Shown here: one piece after another, positions 49,927 to 54,024 of the stretch | How positions within the stretch are numbered: position 1 is the first letter of the stretch | Layout of the letters: each line of letters starts with the position of its first letter | NCBI RefSeq assembly: GCF_004365875.1 | Contig: NZ_SODF01000001.1 | Span: 1,984,001-2,048,000 of the forward strand | Source: Kribbella kalugense | GTDB taxonomy: Bacteria; Actinomycetota; Actinomycetes; Propionibacteriales; Kribbellaceae | Length of the DNA stretch: 64,000 nt | Direction: 5' to 3' | Position numbers and translations under genes: made by a program | Notes under the pieces: model-generated | Databases searched by the model: none | Seen by the model: the letters and a program-made list of their open reading frames with translations, nothing else | Told to the model about the DNA's origin: nothing

Positions 49927-50508
49927 TCACTCGCTACTGCCAGCCTCGTCAACGACCAACTGCGCGACCTGCCGCATCGAAACTCTTTTATCCATTGCGG
50001 TTTTCTGGATCCACCGGAACGAGTCCGGCTCGGACAGCCCGAACTTGGTCTGCAGGATCGACTTGGCCCGGTCGACCAGTTTGCGGGTCTCCAGCCGCTC
50101 GGCCAGGTCCGCGACCTCCCGCTCCAGCTCGGCCAGCTCGACGTACCGAGAGGCGGCGATCTCGATCGCGGGCAGCAGATCCGCCTTGGAGAACGGTTTC
50201 ACCAGGTACGCCATGGCGCCGGCGTCACGGGCCCGCTCGACCAGCTCGCGCTGCGAGAACGCGGTCAGCATCAGCACCGGCGCGATCCGCTCACCGGCGA
50301 TCTTCTCGGCCGCACTCAGCCCGTCCAGCTTCGGCATCTTGACGTCCAGAATCACCAGATCCGGCCGAAGATCCGTCGCCAACCGGATGGCCTCTTCCCC
50401 ATCCCCCGCCTGCCCGACGACGTCGTACCCCTCCTCAGCCAGCATCTCGGCCAGATCCATCCGAATCAAAGCCTCATCCTCAGCGATCACCACACGCTTA
50501 GCAGTCAC
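49927..50508 (-). CDS. ANTAR-domain response regulator (AmiR/NasT type)
   Basis: 193 residues from GTG 50508 (VTAKRVVIAEDEALIR). The receiver domain has the acidic pocket AEDEA, the phosphoacceptor Asp in VILDVKMPKLDG, Thr in MLTAFS and Lys in YLVKPFSKADL. A helical linker follows, then the RNA-binding ANTAR domain (LVDRAKSILQTKFGLSEPDS, RVSMRQVAQLVVDE). ANTAR proteins act by antitermination. A regulator of this kind next to pyk and polA is conserved in actinobacteria (PdtaR type in Mycobacterium), with its histidine kinase encoded elsewhere. It is not evidently tied to the liv operon. Confidence 0.95.
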   Translation of the reverse strand: MTAKRVVIAEDEALIRMDLAEMLAEEGYDVVGQAGDGEEAIRLATDLRPDLVILDVKMPKLDGLSAAEKIAGERIAPVLMLTAFSQRELVERARDAGAMAYLVKPFSKADLLPAIEIAASRYVELAELEREVADLAERLETRKLVDRAKSILQTKFGLSEPDSFRWIQKTAMDKRVSMRQVAQLVVDEAGSSE

Positions 50509-50532
50509 ACCGCACACCTTAGCGATCCCCCC

Positions 50533-51309
50533 TCAGCTCTTCGGCCCCACGAACCCATCCAGCGCGGCGACCCCCTCCTTCCGGCTCACCGCGATCGCGT
50601 TCCGCCGCGGTTGCCGCCAAGGAATCCCGAGCAGATCCAACGTGTCGGTCAGGATCTTCCGGATGTCGTCCGACTCGTTGGAGAACATGTACCGAACGTA
50701 GAAGTAGCGCTTGCCTGACTCCGGCTTGCTTGCCCAGTTCACGAACCGGCACCCATCCGAATGAAACAACCCGCGCAGCAACTGTTCGGGGTACTTGGCA
50801 ACTATCTCCCGCTGCCAATCCTCCAACTCGATCTTCCGCAGATGCTTCCGCCCCGGACCATGCTGCGGAAACACACAAGGCCAGTGCTTCCACCGCGCCT
50901 CAACCCGAATCGCTCCGTCACCTCCCCGCAGACAGGGACTCGCGCCGGGTTTGACCTGTCGAATCGTCTCGGCAATCTCCTGATTGAGCTCGACATACCG
51001 CTCGTCGTTGACGATCTGCAGCGTGAAAACTCCACGCCGCGCCCTGGCGATCGATCCGTCCCCCAGATACCACCCCAGCAACAACGCGTACGCCGCCTCG
51101 TCGAGCTCGGCCCCGTCACACCGAGGACACGGCGTCGCCGGGTATCCGCTCCCCTTGCGGATCCAGCCGTCCCGTTGATAACGCCGCCGCCACGTCCGAA
51201 TCGTCCGCAACGCAACACCGTGGATCGCGGCATTGACGCGATCGGGGACGCCATCATCAGACATCCGCAACGCCGACTCCACCGTCTCCCGCGACCTGAA
51301 GTGCCCCAT
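50533..51309 (-). CDS. HTH - LAGLIDADG homing-endonuclease-like protein (left copy)
   Basis: 258 residues from the ATG at 51309. The N-terminus is a homeodomain-like helix-turn-helix (IHGVALRTIRTWRRRYQ). A CPRC knuckle near residue 62 follows. Two LAGLIDADG-type motifs each keep their acidic residue: ALLLGWYLGDGSIA and LLRGLFHSDGCRF. Between them is RWKHWPCVFPQHGPGRKH, a long stretch shared with the copy at 51515. The protein ends GFVGPKS. Two intact DG motifs suggest a monomeric endonuclease or a WhiA-like DNA-binding derivative. It is divergent from the tRNA and from its paralogue. Confidence 0.82.
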   Translation of the reverse strand: MGHFRSRETVESALRMSDDGVPDRVNAAIHGVALRTIRTWRRRYQRDGWIRKGSGYPATPCPRCDGAELDEAAYALLLGWYLGDGSIARARRGVFTLQIVNDERYVELNQEIAETIRQVKPGASPCLRGGDGAIRVEARWKHWPCVFPQHGPGRKHLRKIELEDWQREIVAKYPEQLLRGLFHSDGCRFVNWASKPESGKRYFYVRYMFSNESDDIRKILTDTLDLLGIPWRQPRRNAIAVSRKEGVAALDGFVGPKS

Positions 51310-51363
51310 ACCCAATGCTCCCGCCGGCCACCGACAGTTTTCTGTTCGAGCGACCGGATGGGC

Positions 51364-51369
51364 TAGGAT
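51364..51369 (+). promoter_or_regulatory. -10 box of the tRNA gene
   Basis: TAGGAT, a good vegetative -10 match, 25 bases before the tRNA. A weak -35-like TCTGTT lies 17 bases upstream (51341-51346). Confidence 0.5.
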
Positions 51370-51394
51370 CTTCGAGCGCACACGGAGCGCATCA

Positions 51395-51467
51395 GCCCTG
51401 GTACCCCAACGGCAGAGGGAGCGGATTCAAAACCCGCACAGTGTGGGTTCAAATCCCACCCAGGGCA
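51395..51467 (+). tRNA. Atypical class I tRNA, anticodon CAA (reads UUG)
   Basis: 73 bases. The acceptor stem GCCCTGG / CCAGGGC and the T-arm GTGGG-TTCAAAT-CCCAC are perfect. The D-stem CCCC pairs with AGGG (one C-A mismatch), and the D-loop has GG. Anticodon stem GCGGA / CCCGC (one A-C mismatch next to the loop), loop TTCAAAA with anticodon CAA (51428-51430). Variable region only five bases (ACAGT); the discriminator is A, and CCA is not encoded. The anticodon is that of tRNA-Leu, but all normal bacterial tRNA-Leu have a long variable arm. The amino acid is therefore uncertain. Confidence 0.85.
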
Positions 51468-51514
51468 CAAATAGGTGGCCGGAATCTGTCGGTCGTGGCT
51501 GGCAACCTCGGGTC

Positions 51515-52264
51515 ATGTACGACGAGGAGACGCGGGCCACCGCACGAGCCGCAATGGCCGGCGGTGAGAGTCTCAACTCGATCAGCAAGCATCTCGGCGT
51601 CAGCCGAGCTACGCTCCGTGACTGGCGGAACCGTGAGGGTCGTAGGACGTACCCGAGTGACTGTCCTCGGTGCGCGAACGGGAAGCTGCCGGGTACGTCG
51701 TACGCGCACTTGCTCGGGTTGTATCTCGGAGACGGCTGCCTGTCGAAGCACCGCCGAGACGTGTACGCGCTCCGGATCGCCTGTGACGACGCCTACCCCC
51801 GGCTGATCGACGAGACGGCGGACGCGATTCTCGCCGTACACCCGAGCCGACCGGTGCACCGCGTCCAGGCCGTCGGATACACGTCGGTGGTTGCGTACTG
51901 GAAGCACTGGCCGTGCTTGTTCCCGCAGCACGGACCAGGACCCAAGCATCGCCGGACCATCGAGCTGGCGACCTGGCAGCAGGAGATCGTTGCCGAGTGC
52001 CCCGAACTCTTCCTCCGCGGCCTGTTCAACTCCGACGGCTGCCGGGTCGCGAACTGGACGAGTCGCACAGTCGGCGGCGTACAGAAGCGGCACGAATATC
52101 CCCGCTACATGTTCTCCAACGAGTCCGCCGACATCATGCAACTGTGCCAGTGGGCTCTCGACCTCCTGGACATCCCTTGGCGCATGCCCCGCCGAAACGC
52201 GTTGTCCGTAGCCCGCCGAGAAGCGGTAGGCAGACTAGACGAATTCATCGGCTCGAAGTCGTAG
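51515..52264 (+). CDS. HTH - LAGLIDADG homing-endonuclease-like protein (right copy)
   Basis: 249 residues from the ATG at 51515; longer frames would run through the tRNA and are rejected. N-terminal HTH (SLNSISKHLGVSRATLRDWR), CPRC knuckle (DCPRCANGKLPG), first motif AHLLGLYLGDGCLS, the shared YWKHWPCLFPQHGPGPKHR, second motif FLRGLFNSDGCRVANW, and YPRYMFSNESADI. It ends FIGSKS. Roughly half the residues are identical to the left copy, with matching motif order and ends. Both LAGLIDADG acids are kept. Functions could include nicking or cutting at the tRNA locus, or regulation; none is established. Confidence 0.82.
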   Translation: MYDEETRATARAAMAGGESLNSISKHLGVSRATLRDWRNREGRRTYPSDCPRCANGKLPGTSYAHLLGLYLGDGCLSKHRRDVYALRIACDDAYPRLIDETADAILAVHPSRPVHRVQAVGYTSVVAYWKHWPCLFPQHGPGPKHRRTIELATWQQEIVAECPELFLRGLFNSDGCRVANWTSRTVGGVQKRHEYPRYMFSNESADIMQLCQWALDLLDIPWRMPRRNALSVARREAVGRLDEFIGSKS

Positions 52265-52352
52265 GTGAGCCGCCTATACAACGTGCCTGAGCATCAGGCC
52301 GGGGCGCCTTTGGGTCGCCTTCCGTGCAGTTCGCGGGACTGTGGACACCCTT

Positions 52353-52392
52353 TGGGGTCTGGAGACAGGAAATAACCTGTCTCCAGACCCCA
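52353..52392. terminator. Perfect 17-bp hairpin between the right HTH gene and pyk
   Basis: Arms 52353-52369 (TGGGGTCTGGAGACAGG) and 52376-52392 pair without mismatch around a six-base loop. It lies in the 209-base gap between convergent genes and would serve both. The remainder of the gap shows nothing else. Confidence 0.85.
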
Positions 52393-52473
52393 GTTCTTGT
52401 CTCCGGCCCCGGTTCATGGCTCGGGCGGAGGCGGGCGGTCAGGTGGCCGGCCGCCTCGGGCGGTGCGTGCTGG

Positions 52474-53925
52474 TTACGGGTTTTGGCTTCGGTAGGCGGG
52501 GGCTATGCCGTCTATGGCGTCGCCCATTCGGTGGACTCGGAGGGCGTTGGTGGAGCCGGGGATGCTGGGTGGGGAGCCGGCAACGATGACGACCAGGTCG
52601 CCCTTGTTGAGTTTGCCGAGCTCCAGCAGGCGCTGGTCTACCTGGCGGACCATTTCGTCGGTGTGTTCGACGGTGGGGACGATGAACGTTTCCACGCCCC
52701 ACACGACGCTCAGCCAGGCGCTGACCGACGGGACCGGGGTGAACGCGAGCAGCGGGACCTCGGTGCGGTAGCGGGCCAGCCGGAGCGCGGTGTCGCCGGA
52801 CTGGGTGAAGGCGATCAGGTACTTCGCGTCCAGCCGCTCGGCCACGTCCGCGGCCGCACGGGCGATCACGCCGCCCTTGGTCTTCGGCTCCCACTCGATC
52901 GCCTGGACCCGGCTCAGGCCGTGTTCCTCGGTCGACTCCACGATCCGCGACATCGTCTTGACGGTCTCGATCGGGAACCGGCCGACGCTGGTCTCACCGG
53001 ACAGCATGACCGCGTCCGCGCCGTCGAGTACGGCGTTCGCGACGTCGGAGGCCTCGGCCCGGGTCGGCCGCGGGGCGGAGATCATCGACTCCAGCATCTG
53101 GGTGGCGACGATCACCGGCTTCGCGTTCAGCCGGGCCTGGTCGATGATCAGCTTCTGGACCAGCGGGACCTCCTCCAGCGGGAGCTCCACGCCGAGGTCA
53201 CCGCGGGCCACCATGAAGCCGTCGAAGGCGTCGATGATCTCGTCGAGGTTGGCGACCGCCTGCGGCTTCTCGATCTTGGCGATCACCGGGATCCGGTGAC
53301 CTTCCTCTTCCATGATCTTGTGCACGATCCGGATGTCGTCCGCGCGCTGGACGAAGGACAGCGCGATGATGTCGGCCGGCAGGTGCAGTGCCCAGCGCAG
53401 GTCCTCGGCGTCCTTCTCCGACATTGCCGGCACGCTCACCGTGACACCGGGCAGGTTGATGCCCTTGTGGTTGGACACCGGCCCGCCGACGGTGACCCGG
53501 CAGATCACGTCGGTCTCGGTGACCTCCTCGGCCACCAGCGCGATCCGGCCGTCGTCGATGAGCAGCTGGTCGCCGGGGCTCACGTCGCCCGCCAGACCGT
53601 CGTACGTCGTACCGCAGATGGTCTGGTCACCCGGCACCTCCCGGGTGGTGATCGTGAACCGCTCGCCGTAGGTCAGCGTTGCCTTGCCCTCGGCGAACTC
53701 GGCCAGGCGGATCTTCGGGCCCTGCAGGTCGACCAGGATGCCGACGTTGTGGCCGGTCTCCGCGGCTGCGGTGCGGATCCGCTGATAGATGCGCTCATGC
53801 TCGGCATGGGCGCCATGACTCAGGTTGAGTCTTGCGACGTCCATACCTGCTTGGACGAGTTCCAGGATGCGCTCGGGGGCGGCAGTAGCCGGGCCGAGCG
53901 TACAAACGATCTTTGCGCGACGCAC
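52474..53925 (-). CDS. pyk: Pyruvate kinase
   Basis: 483 residues from the GTG at 53925. Makes pyruvate and ATP from phosphoenolpyruvate. N-terminal RRAKIVCTLGPAT, the substrate motif ARLNLSHGAHAEH, LVDLQGPKIRL, the catalytic Lys motif VIAKIEKPQAVANL, MVARGDLGVE and VATQMLESM are intact. The C-terminal effector domain ends GTG-less (AIDGIAPAYRS), with normal length. A TAGGGT -10 box on the minus strand (53934-53939) is eight bases before the start, while GCAGGAG is too far to act as ribosome binding site, so the transcript is probably leaderless. Confidence 0.97.
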   Translation of the reverse strand: MRRAKIVCTLGPATAAPERILELVQAGMDVARLNLSHGAHAEHERIYQRIRTAAAETGHNVGILVDLQGPKIRLAEFAEGKATLTYGERFTITTREVPGDQTICGTTYDGLAGDVSPGDQLLIDDGRIALVAEEVTETDVICRVTVGGPVSNHKGINLPGVTVSVPAMSEKDAEDLRWALHLPADIIALSFVQRADDIRIVHKIMEEEGHRIPVIAKIEKPQAVANLDEIIDAFDGFMVARGDLGVELPLEEVPLVQKLIIDQARLNAKPVIVATQMLESMISAPRPTRAEASDVANAVLDGADAVMLSGETSVGRFPIETVKTMSRIVESTEEHGLSRVQAIEWEPKTKGGVIARAAADVAERLDAKYLIAFTQSGDTALRLARYRTEVPLLAFTPVPSVSAWLSVVWGVETFIVPTVEHTDEMVRQVDQRLLELGKLNKGDLVVIVAGSPPSIPGSTNALRVHRMGDAIDGIAPAYRSQNP

Positions 53926-54024
53926 GTCACAAAACCCTACTCCTGCAAACCACTGCCCCCGCTGGTCCACCCCCGTTACTGGACAGTTAACAGCTGAAGG
54001 CAATCAGGTACATCGCCTGAATCG

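Follow-up and report, generated by a model that had tools for sequence, protein, structure and literature searches.

In a 64,000-nucleotide stretch of the Kribbella kalugense genome (hereafter the window), two related genes, A and B, point away from a tRNA-Leu(CAA) gene of unusually compact form. The products of A and B are probably free-standing LAGLIDADG homing endonucleases, each spreading with an adjacent tRNA-Leu gene and replacing the resident tRNA-Leu(CAA). A broader proposal can be advanced more tentatively: that this is a natural home-and-rescue drive, in which the single-copy tRNA-Leu(CAA) gene of actinobacteria is the target of competing homing endonucleases. Each of these would bring along a version of that tRNA resistant to cleavage, either possessing the long variable arm or lacking it, and a translation gene would thus be exchanged in both directions among Streptomyces, Kribbella, and Nocardioides. 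In what follows, homing endonuclease gene (HEG) is used as shorthand for any nuclease-like gene of the A/B family.

Gene A (positions 50533..51309, minus strand) encodes 258 amino acids and gene B (51515..52264, plus strand) encodes 249, as judged from their open reading frames (ORFs) and homologues and, for B, a structural model. Between them lies the tRNA gene (51395..51467, plus strand), recognized by both ARAGORN and Rfam. The region is flanked on the left by a gene for an ANTAR-type response regulator (49927..50517, minus strand) and on the right by the pyruvate kinase gene pyk (52474..54003, minus strand), each identified from its ORF and from relatives. The original prediction, made from the sequence of the window, had described a divergent pair of paralogues around one tRNA, with shared motifs and within conserved ANTAR-to-pyk surroundings, and all of these features were recovered on analysis. 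A and B are 51% identical across 230 residues (E 1e-75), and have in common the stretch WKHWPC(V/L)FPQHGPG, acidic GDG and SDG motifs of the LAGLIDADG type, and a C-terminal G.KS.

A long variable arm is normal for tRNA-Leu, and the window tRNA-Leu(CAA) is without one. It measures 74 nucleotides by ARAGORN, scores 53.1 bits against the Rfam tRNA model, and has a variable loop of only 5 nucleotides. At the ANTAR-pyk site of different genomes, this short form (74-79 nucleotides) alternates with a class II form of tRNA-Leu(CAA) (84-87 nucleotides).

Linkage of the endonuclease genes to tRNA-Leu

A gene of 750 bp has a chance of only about 0.9% of lying within 300 bp of any tRNA gene in this genome. 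Among the 205 homologues that passed an intactness filter and had a tRNA in the locus (a set that includes 11 repeated loci), 200 lie within 300 bp of a tRNA gene, which is always tRNA-Leu. The filter drops some intact A copies whose match reaches the leader, and its count of broken copies was left unused. With the 11 repeats removed, the combined set holds 197 actinobacterial loci, 196 of which carry a total of 235 HEG segments. In 233 of these segments the closest tRNA gene encodes tRNA-Leu (anticodon CAA for 226, UAG for 7), and the other two lie at contig ends. From these comparisons, the presumptive mobile unit is one HEG with its adjacent tRNA-Leu gene rather than the A-B pair. The earlier suggestion of a defined cassette, possibly a homing element, is partly supported and revised in its extent.

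The seven UAG loci (L278, L279, L280, L283, L284, L285, and L289) all belong to one genus (g19) and carry a class II tRNA-Leu(UAG); close homologues of one of them bear the names Mycolicibacterium or Mycobacterium. In these loci, and in family f23, the HEG is divergent from the tRNA. Two tandem HEGs follow a single tRNA in L164 (Streptomyces rimosus), L236 (genome G255), and L282 (genome G271), and the two S. rimosus genes fall in different HEG clades.

The family is present in 46 of 97 genomes, K. kalugense included. The ANTAR gene, which is found in all 97, stands beside the HEG in all 51 HEG loci compared, and pyk is present in every locus that reaches that far. Comparison of the ANTAR-pyk interval among relatives, as had been proposed at the outset, also revealed sites that lack the HEG. 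The ANTAR loci of 40 of the 51 HEG-less genomes all carry tRNA-Leu(CAA), in the class II form at 29 and the short form at 11, which rules out that the short tRNA is exclusive to HEG loci. Only 13-41 bp separate the tRNA from pyk at six of the short HEG-less loci, and in relatives the HEG occupies that gap. One HEG-less locus (L204) retains an HEG-type leader, and genome G016 retains a 27-residue remnant of A. Similarly, a scan of named genomes found tRNA-Leu(CAA) in all of the best 80 loci, which are mostly from Streptomyces; at one of these (L170) the HEG lies 2.2 kb away. Across the class, the family was detected in 89 of 394 genomes, representing 27 of 138 genera.

Alternation of tRNA forms at one site

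The two tRNA forms were tracked with a model of the short tRNA (R1) and a model of the class II CAA tRNA (R2). At the thresholds used, 26 of 38 Kribbella genomes match R1 and the other 12 match R2; none match both or neither. Gene B or a remnant of it is present in 26/26 short-form genomes versus 1/12 class II genomes (Fisher p 1e-8), and A or a remnant is present in 12/12 class II and 22/26 short-form genomes. Kribbella genomes with A alone carry a class II tRNA, and both this tRNA and A are oriented towards ANTAR. In genomes with the pair, A lies on the ANTAR-ward strand without a tRNA, and the short tRNA and B are oriented towards pyk. Genome G027 presents the reciprocal arrangement, in which the class II tRNA and A are present, B is kept, and the short tRNA is absent. 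At the same site in another genus (g6), whose close matches are named Nocardioides, class II tRNAs accompany A-like genes and short tRNAs accompany B-like genes. An HEG is present in each of the eight Streptomyces genomes (g34) of the class sample that match R2, and at least six HEG-less Streptomyces genomes match R1 (one of which, L322, was read).

The tRNA form was mapped onto trees of the HEGs and of the neighboring genes. All trees came from quick searches with support from the Shimodaira-Hasegawa-like approximate likelihood ratio test (SH-aLRT), and the flank genes used adjoin the site. On the Kribbella codon tree of ANTAR plus pyk, in which five rows are less than half filled, the tRNA form needs 11 changes, at least 8 of which are forced by starred branches. 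Shuffled forms need 10.4 changes on average, and 405-414 of 500 shuffles are as low, so the form shows no phylogenetic signal on this tree. The closest pair of genomes with opposite forms (G009 and G021) share 97.7% identity across 2100 bases of flank. For Streptomyces, 88 of 99 loci had sufficient flank sequence, 8 of them with the class II form and 80 with the short form. Their flank tree requires 8 changes of form, where 500/500 shuffles are as low, versus 3 changes on the tree of the 87 filter-passing HEGs from those loci, where 0/500 shuffles are as low. Therefore, the tRNA form follows the HEG in Streptomyces. These Streptomyces trees are the main evidence for joint travel, and they suggest that HEG and tRNA form have been transferred together.

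The D-arm of the short tRNA, as read from alignments, resembles that of class II tRNA-Leu, with a three-pair stem, AA, and GGCAGA. Across a set of 26 short tRNAs, all distinct, standard pairs fill 98.7% of pair cells, and both sides have changed at 10 of 20 pairs, compared to a shuffled mean of 5.7. This pairing and these two-sided changes indicate that the cloverleaf is under selection, which points to a widespread form of bacterial tRNA-Leu that has no long variable arm and whose stems are selectively maintained. An arms race might conceivably have made the CAA tRNA hypervariable. Mean pairwise identity within Kribbella is 0.854 for the 26 short CAA tRNAs, 20 of which are distinct, and 0.904 for the 11 class II CAA tRNAs, 7 of which are distinct. 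The corresponding values for control tRNAs, covering just the 30 best-scoring of the 38 genomes, are 0.950 for UAA (14 distinct of 30) and 0.998 for CAG (2 of 30).

The K. kalugense genome also encodes class II Leu tRNAs with the anticodons UAG, UAA, GAG, and CAG. It has one R1 match and no R2 match, and the window tRNA gene therefore appears to be the only one here with the anticodon CAA, which matches the leucine codon UUG, a statement that rests on R1 and R2 in a genome where 4 of 54 tRNA matches have no anticodon reading. A restriction of the short form to CAA was ruled out by ten second-site R1 matches in relatives of the same order (L253-L262), all of which are short tRNA-Leu genes (UAA for seven, UAG for three). 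Elsewhere in K. kalugense (G000 C2:637200-640050; L091, L092, and L095), extra low-scoring calls for Pro, Arg, His, and Ser tRNAs resemble a mobile tRNA array.

Predicted activity, proposed mechanism, and alternatives

The AlphaFold (AF2) model of B has a mean predicted local distance difference test (pLDDT) score of 90.2, and it matches LAGLIDADG endonucleases best, among them intein endonucleases, I-Tsp061I, and I-DmoI. A search of Protein Data Bank sequences gave weak matches only (I-AniI, E 0.45). Both A and B have an N-terminal helix-turn-helix (HTH) and a LAGLIDADG_3 match, with both matches falling under the Pfam cut-offs. In A, the HTH (residues 13-48 of the 258-residue reading) spans 51166..51273 on the minus strand by the HTH_23 model of Pfam, once its coordinates are adjusted to a start at 51309, and the motifs LLGWYLGDG and LRGLFHSDG follow at 51055..51081 and 50752..50778. 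In B, the Pfam HTH (residues 3-40) spans 51521..51634 on the plus strand, and the two LAGLIDADG motifs, at 51710..51736 and 52013..52039, contain D73 and D174, respectively. Both of these aspartates are kept in 207/207 proteins (206 HEGs, repeats included, plus a viral copy). Also, the HEG occupies its own ORF, in neither an intron nor an intein, and is polymorphic for presence and absence at one site. Together, these features make it likely that A and B are free-standing LAGLIDADG homing endonucleases with predicted cleavage activity.

Gene A has a median ratio of nonsynonymous to synonymous changes (dN/dS) of 0.188 (30) and gene B one of 0.196 (24), compared to 0.051 in ANTAR and 0.143 in pyk. 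Synonymous differences per site have medians of 0.54-0.58 for HEGs and 0.24-0.30 for the flanks, which would suit deeper HEG lineages, although codon bias may contribute. Split or truncated copies occur in at least eight of the 38 Kribbella genomes (G019, G021, G027, G028, G031, G032, G035, and G036), and further broken copies were found in the class sample.

A cycle of invasion and decay could account for these patterns. The HEG enzyme would cut the tRNA-Leu locus of an allele without the HEG, and repair templated by the HEG-bearing copy would import the HEG plus its tRNA form, short or class II, by co-conversion. The imported form would maintain UUG decoding and escape cutting. Later, the HEG would decay and disappear, leaving the tRNA in place and the site open to new invasion. 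The window would then hold two units that had converged on a single site, where A kept its gene and leader, its class II tRNA was lost, and the short tRNA of B was left. Of two redundant CAA tRNAs, one would be lost: the class II form in the 22 short-form genomes with A or its remnant, and the short form in G027. The order of events, the cleavage, its target, and the resistance of the carried tRNA are all inferred.

Several observations weigh against this proposal. Every CAA site found occupies a single chromosomal place, and therefore the case for mobility rests on the trees and not on new sites. The 11 HEG-less loci with a short tRNA, and the many Kribbella genomes in which an intact A stands without its tRNA, are also at odds with a strict partnership. 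Furthermore, the tree of 148 HEGs from all families requires 21 changes of form, with loose coupling overall and mixing in family f20. The tRNA-Leu(CAA) is not necessarily essential, because tRNA-Leu(UAA) might read UUG by wobble. A tblastn search with B against annotated phages and plasmids gave no match. Finally, the regulator WhiA matches the B model at a Z score equal to that of I-DmoI, and the WhiA Pfam domain PF14527 occurs in 4 of 120 distant relatives of the viral copy among the matches listed.

These last similarities lead to an alternative in which A and B are domesticated WhiA-like transcription regulators of the adjacent tRNA-Leu gene. Their HTH and LAGLIDADG domains would attach to the promoter or leader of the tRNA and adjust how UUG is decoded, and the nuclease fold would be no more than a legacy. 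WhiA (DUF199) shares the combination of a LAGLIDADG domain with an HTH. However, the HTH of WhiA is C-terminal and its active site is dead, whereas the HTH of A and B is N-terminal and their active-site acids are invariant, even though a regulator could dispense with both catalytic aspartates. No WhiA model in Pfam or NCBIfam matched A or B at E up to 1. Likewise, a regulator would not be expected to have so patchy a distribution across the class or to be broken so frequently while its tRNA remains intact, and regulation leaves unexplained why the tRNA form tracks the HEG tree. Thus, a regulatory role is judged unlikely.

Another possibility is that these are ordinary free-standing homing endonucleases for which the tRNA-pyk gap is a safe site. 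The tRNA form would then change by unrelated homologous recombination or through phage-borne tRNAs, and the HEG would hitch-hike. Such an origin fits the short tRNAs that occur without an HEG, or in phages without this HEG, as well as the variability of tRNA-Leu(UAA) and the loose coupling in f20. It does not fit the Streptomyces class II form, which is matched only in HEG-bearing genomes and tracks the HEG tree, or the company that B keeps with the short form in Kribbella, and is considered quite improbable. It is very unlikely that the short tRNA serves immune evasion by escaping nucleases that cut the variable arm, with the HEG a carrier selected for spreading it. Phages do carry short tRNA-Leu, but the class II form accompanies HEGs in Streptomyces that have short relatives, and so the change is not one-way.

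If co-conversion by homing endonucleases is the correct explanation, a core translation gene has repeatedly been replaced by a selfish element bearing a rescue copy. This would account for two tRNA-Leu(CAA) architectures at one site, supply a natural counterpart to engineered home-and-rescue drives, and offer in Streptomyces a tractable bacterial system for the study of drive, resistance, and decay.

Comparison with known systems and further features of the locus

Certain known systems share some of these properties. SegB of phages T4 and T6 is described as a free-standing endonuclease among tRNA genes that helps the tRNA segment to be inherited or amplified (PMC13096335, PMC2988022). The location of a free-standing endonuclease gene by tRNA genes is alike, and a similar working is proposed here. 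In contrast, SegB is a phage-borne GIY-YIG enzyme, and A and B are chromosomal, combine a LAGLIDADG fold with an HTH (the fold of B is not GIY-YIG), are tied to tRNA-Leu, and are associated with two tRNA forms that are apparently swapped, with cleavage predicted. I-DmoI and I-Tsp061I are intron-encoded, unlike A and B, which are free-standing, carry an N-terminal HTH, and sit beside a tRNA gene. Synthetic home-and-rescue and Cleave-and-Rescue drives share the logic of coupling a cutter with a copy of its target that serves as a rescue (PMC7968924, PMC7951863). Those are engineered CRISPR constructs, whereas the HEG-tRNA unit is natural and bacterial, with cutting and resistance predicted.

Phages provide other partial parallels. 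Among viral contigs, a single one carries an HEG, of 31-32% identity, and the gene adjoins a short-form tRNA-Leu(CAA) that belongs to a tRNA array; a search with this viral copy against phages gave no match. In Corynebacterium phage StAB (L383), a 77-nucleotide tRNA-Leu(CAA) gene (799-875) is directly followed, 47 bp downstream, by an endonuclease gene (922-1599), but this is annotated as HNH and hence belongs to another nuclease family. Phages Comrade, ATCC 8014-B2, and Bonray (L384, L385, and L386) have short tRNA-Leu genes with the anticodons CAA, UAG, and GAG. Literature searches found no paper that describes the HEG-tRNA unit or a bacterial tRNA-Leu(CAA) of short form. The nearest published case comes from a mycobacterial tRNA cluster that includes a short tRNA-Leu(TAG) and has a reported HNH gene (PMC6582537); the accessible part of another report names no such short tRNA (PMC7609411).

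The start codons are best assigned to ATG 51309 for A, as indicated by homologues, rather than GTG 51381, and to ATG 51515 for B. Upstream of each is a leader motif that is likely part of a promoter: TGTCGGTG for A (51329..51336, minus strand), which in relatives lies beside the class II tRNA, absent from this locus, and TGTCGGTC for B (51487..51494, plus strand). The sequence TGTCGG(T/C)(G/C) is present in 64 of 206 HEG leaders, compared to an expectation of about 0.04 per leader, a frequency that rules out a family-wide leader motif. Where present, TGTCGG is mostly 30-35 bases 5' of the start codon, a position that would suit a leaderless promoter. Between B and pyk, positions 52339-52406 form a near-perfect inverted repeat, matched weakly by Rfam on each of the two strands, which is likely a terminator hairpin.
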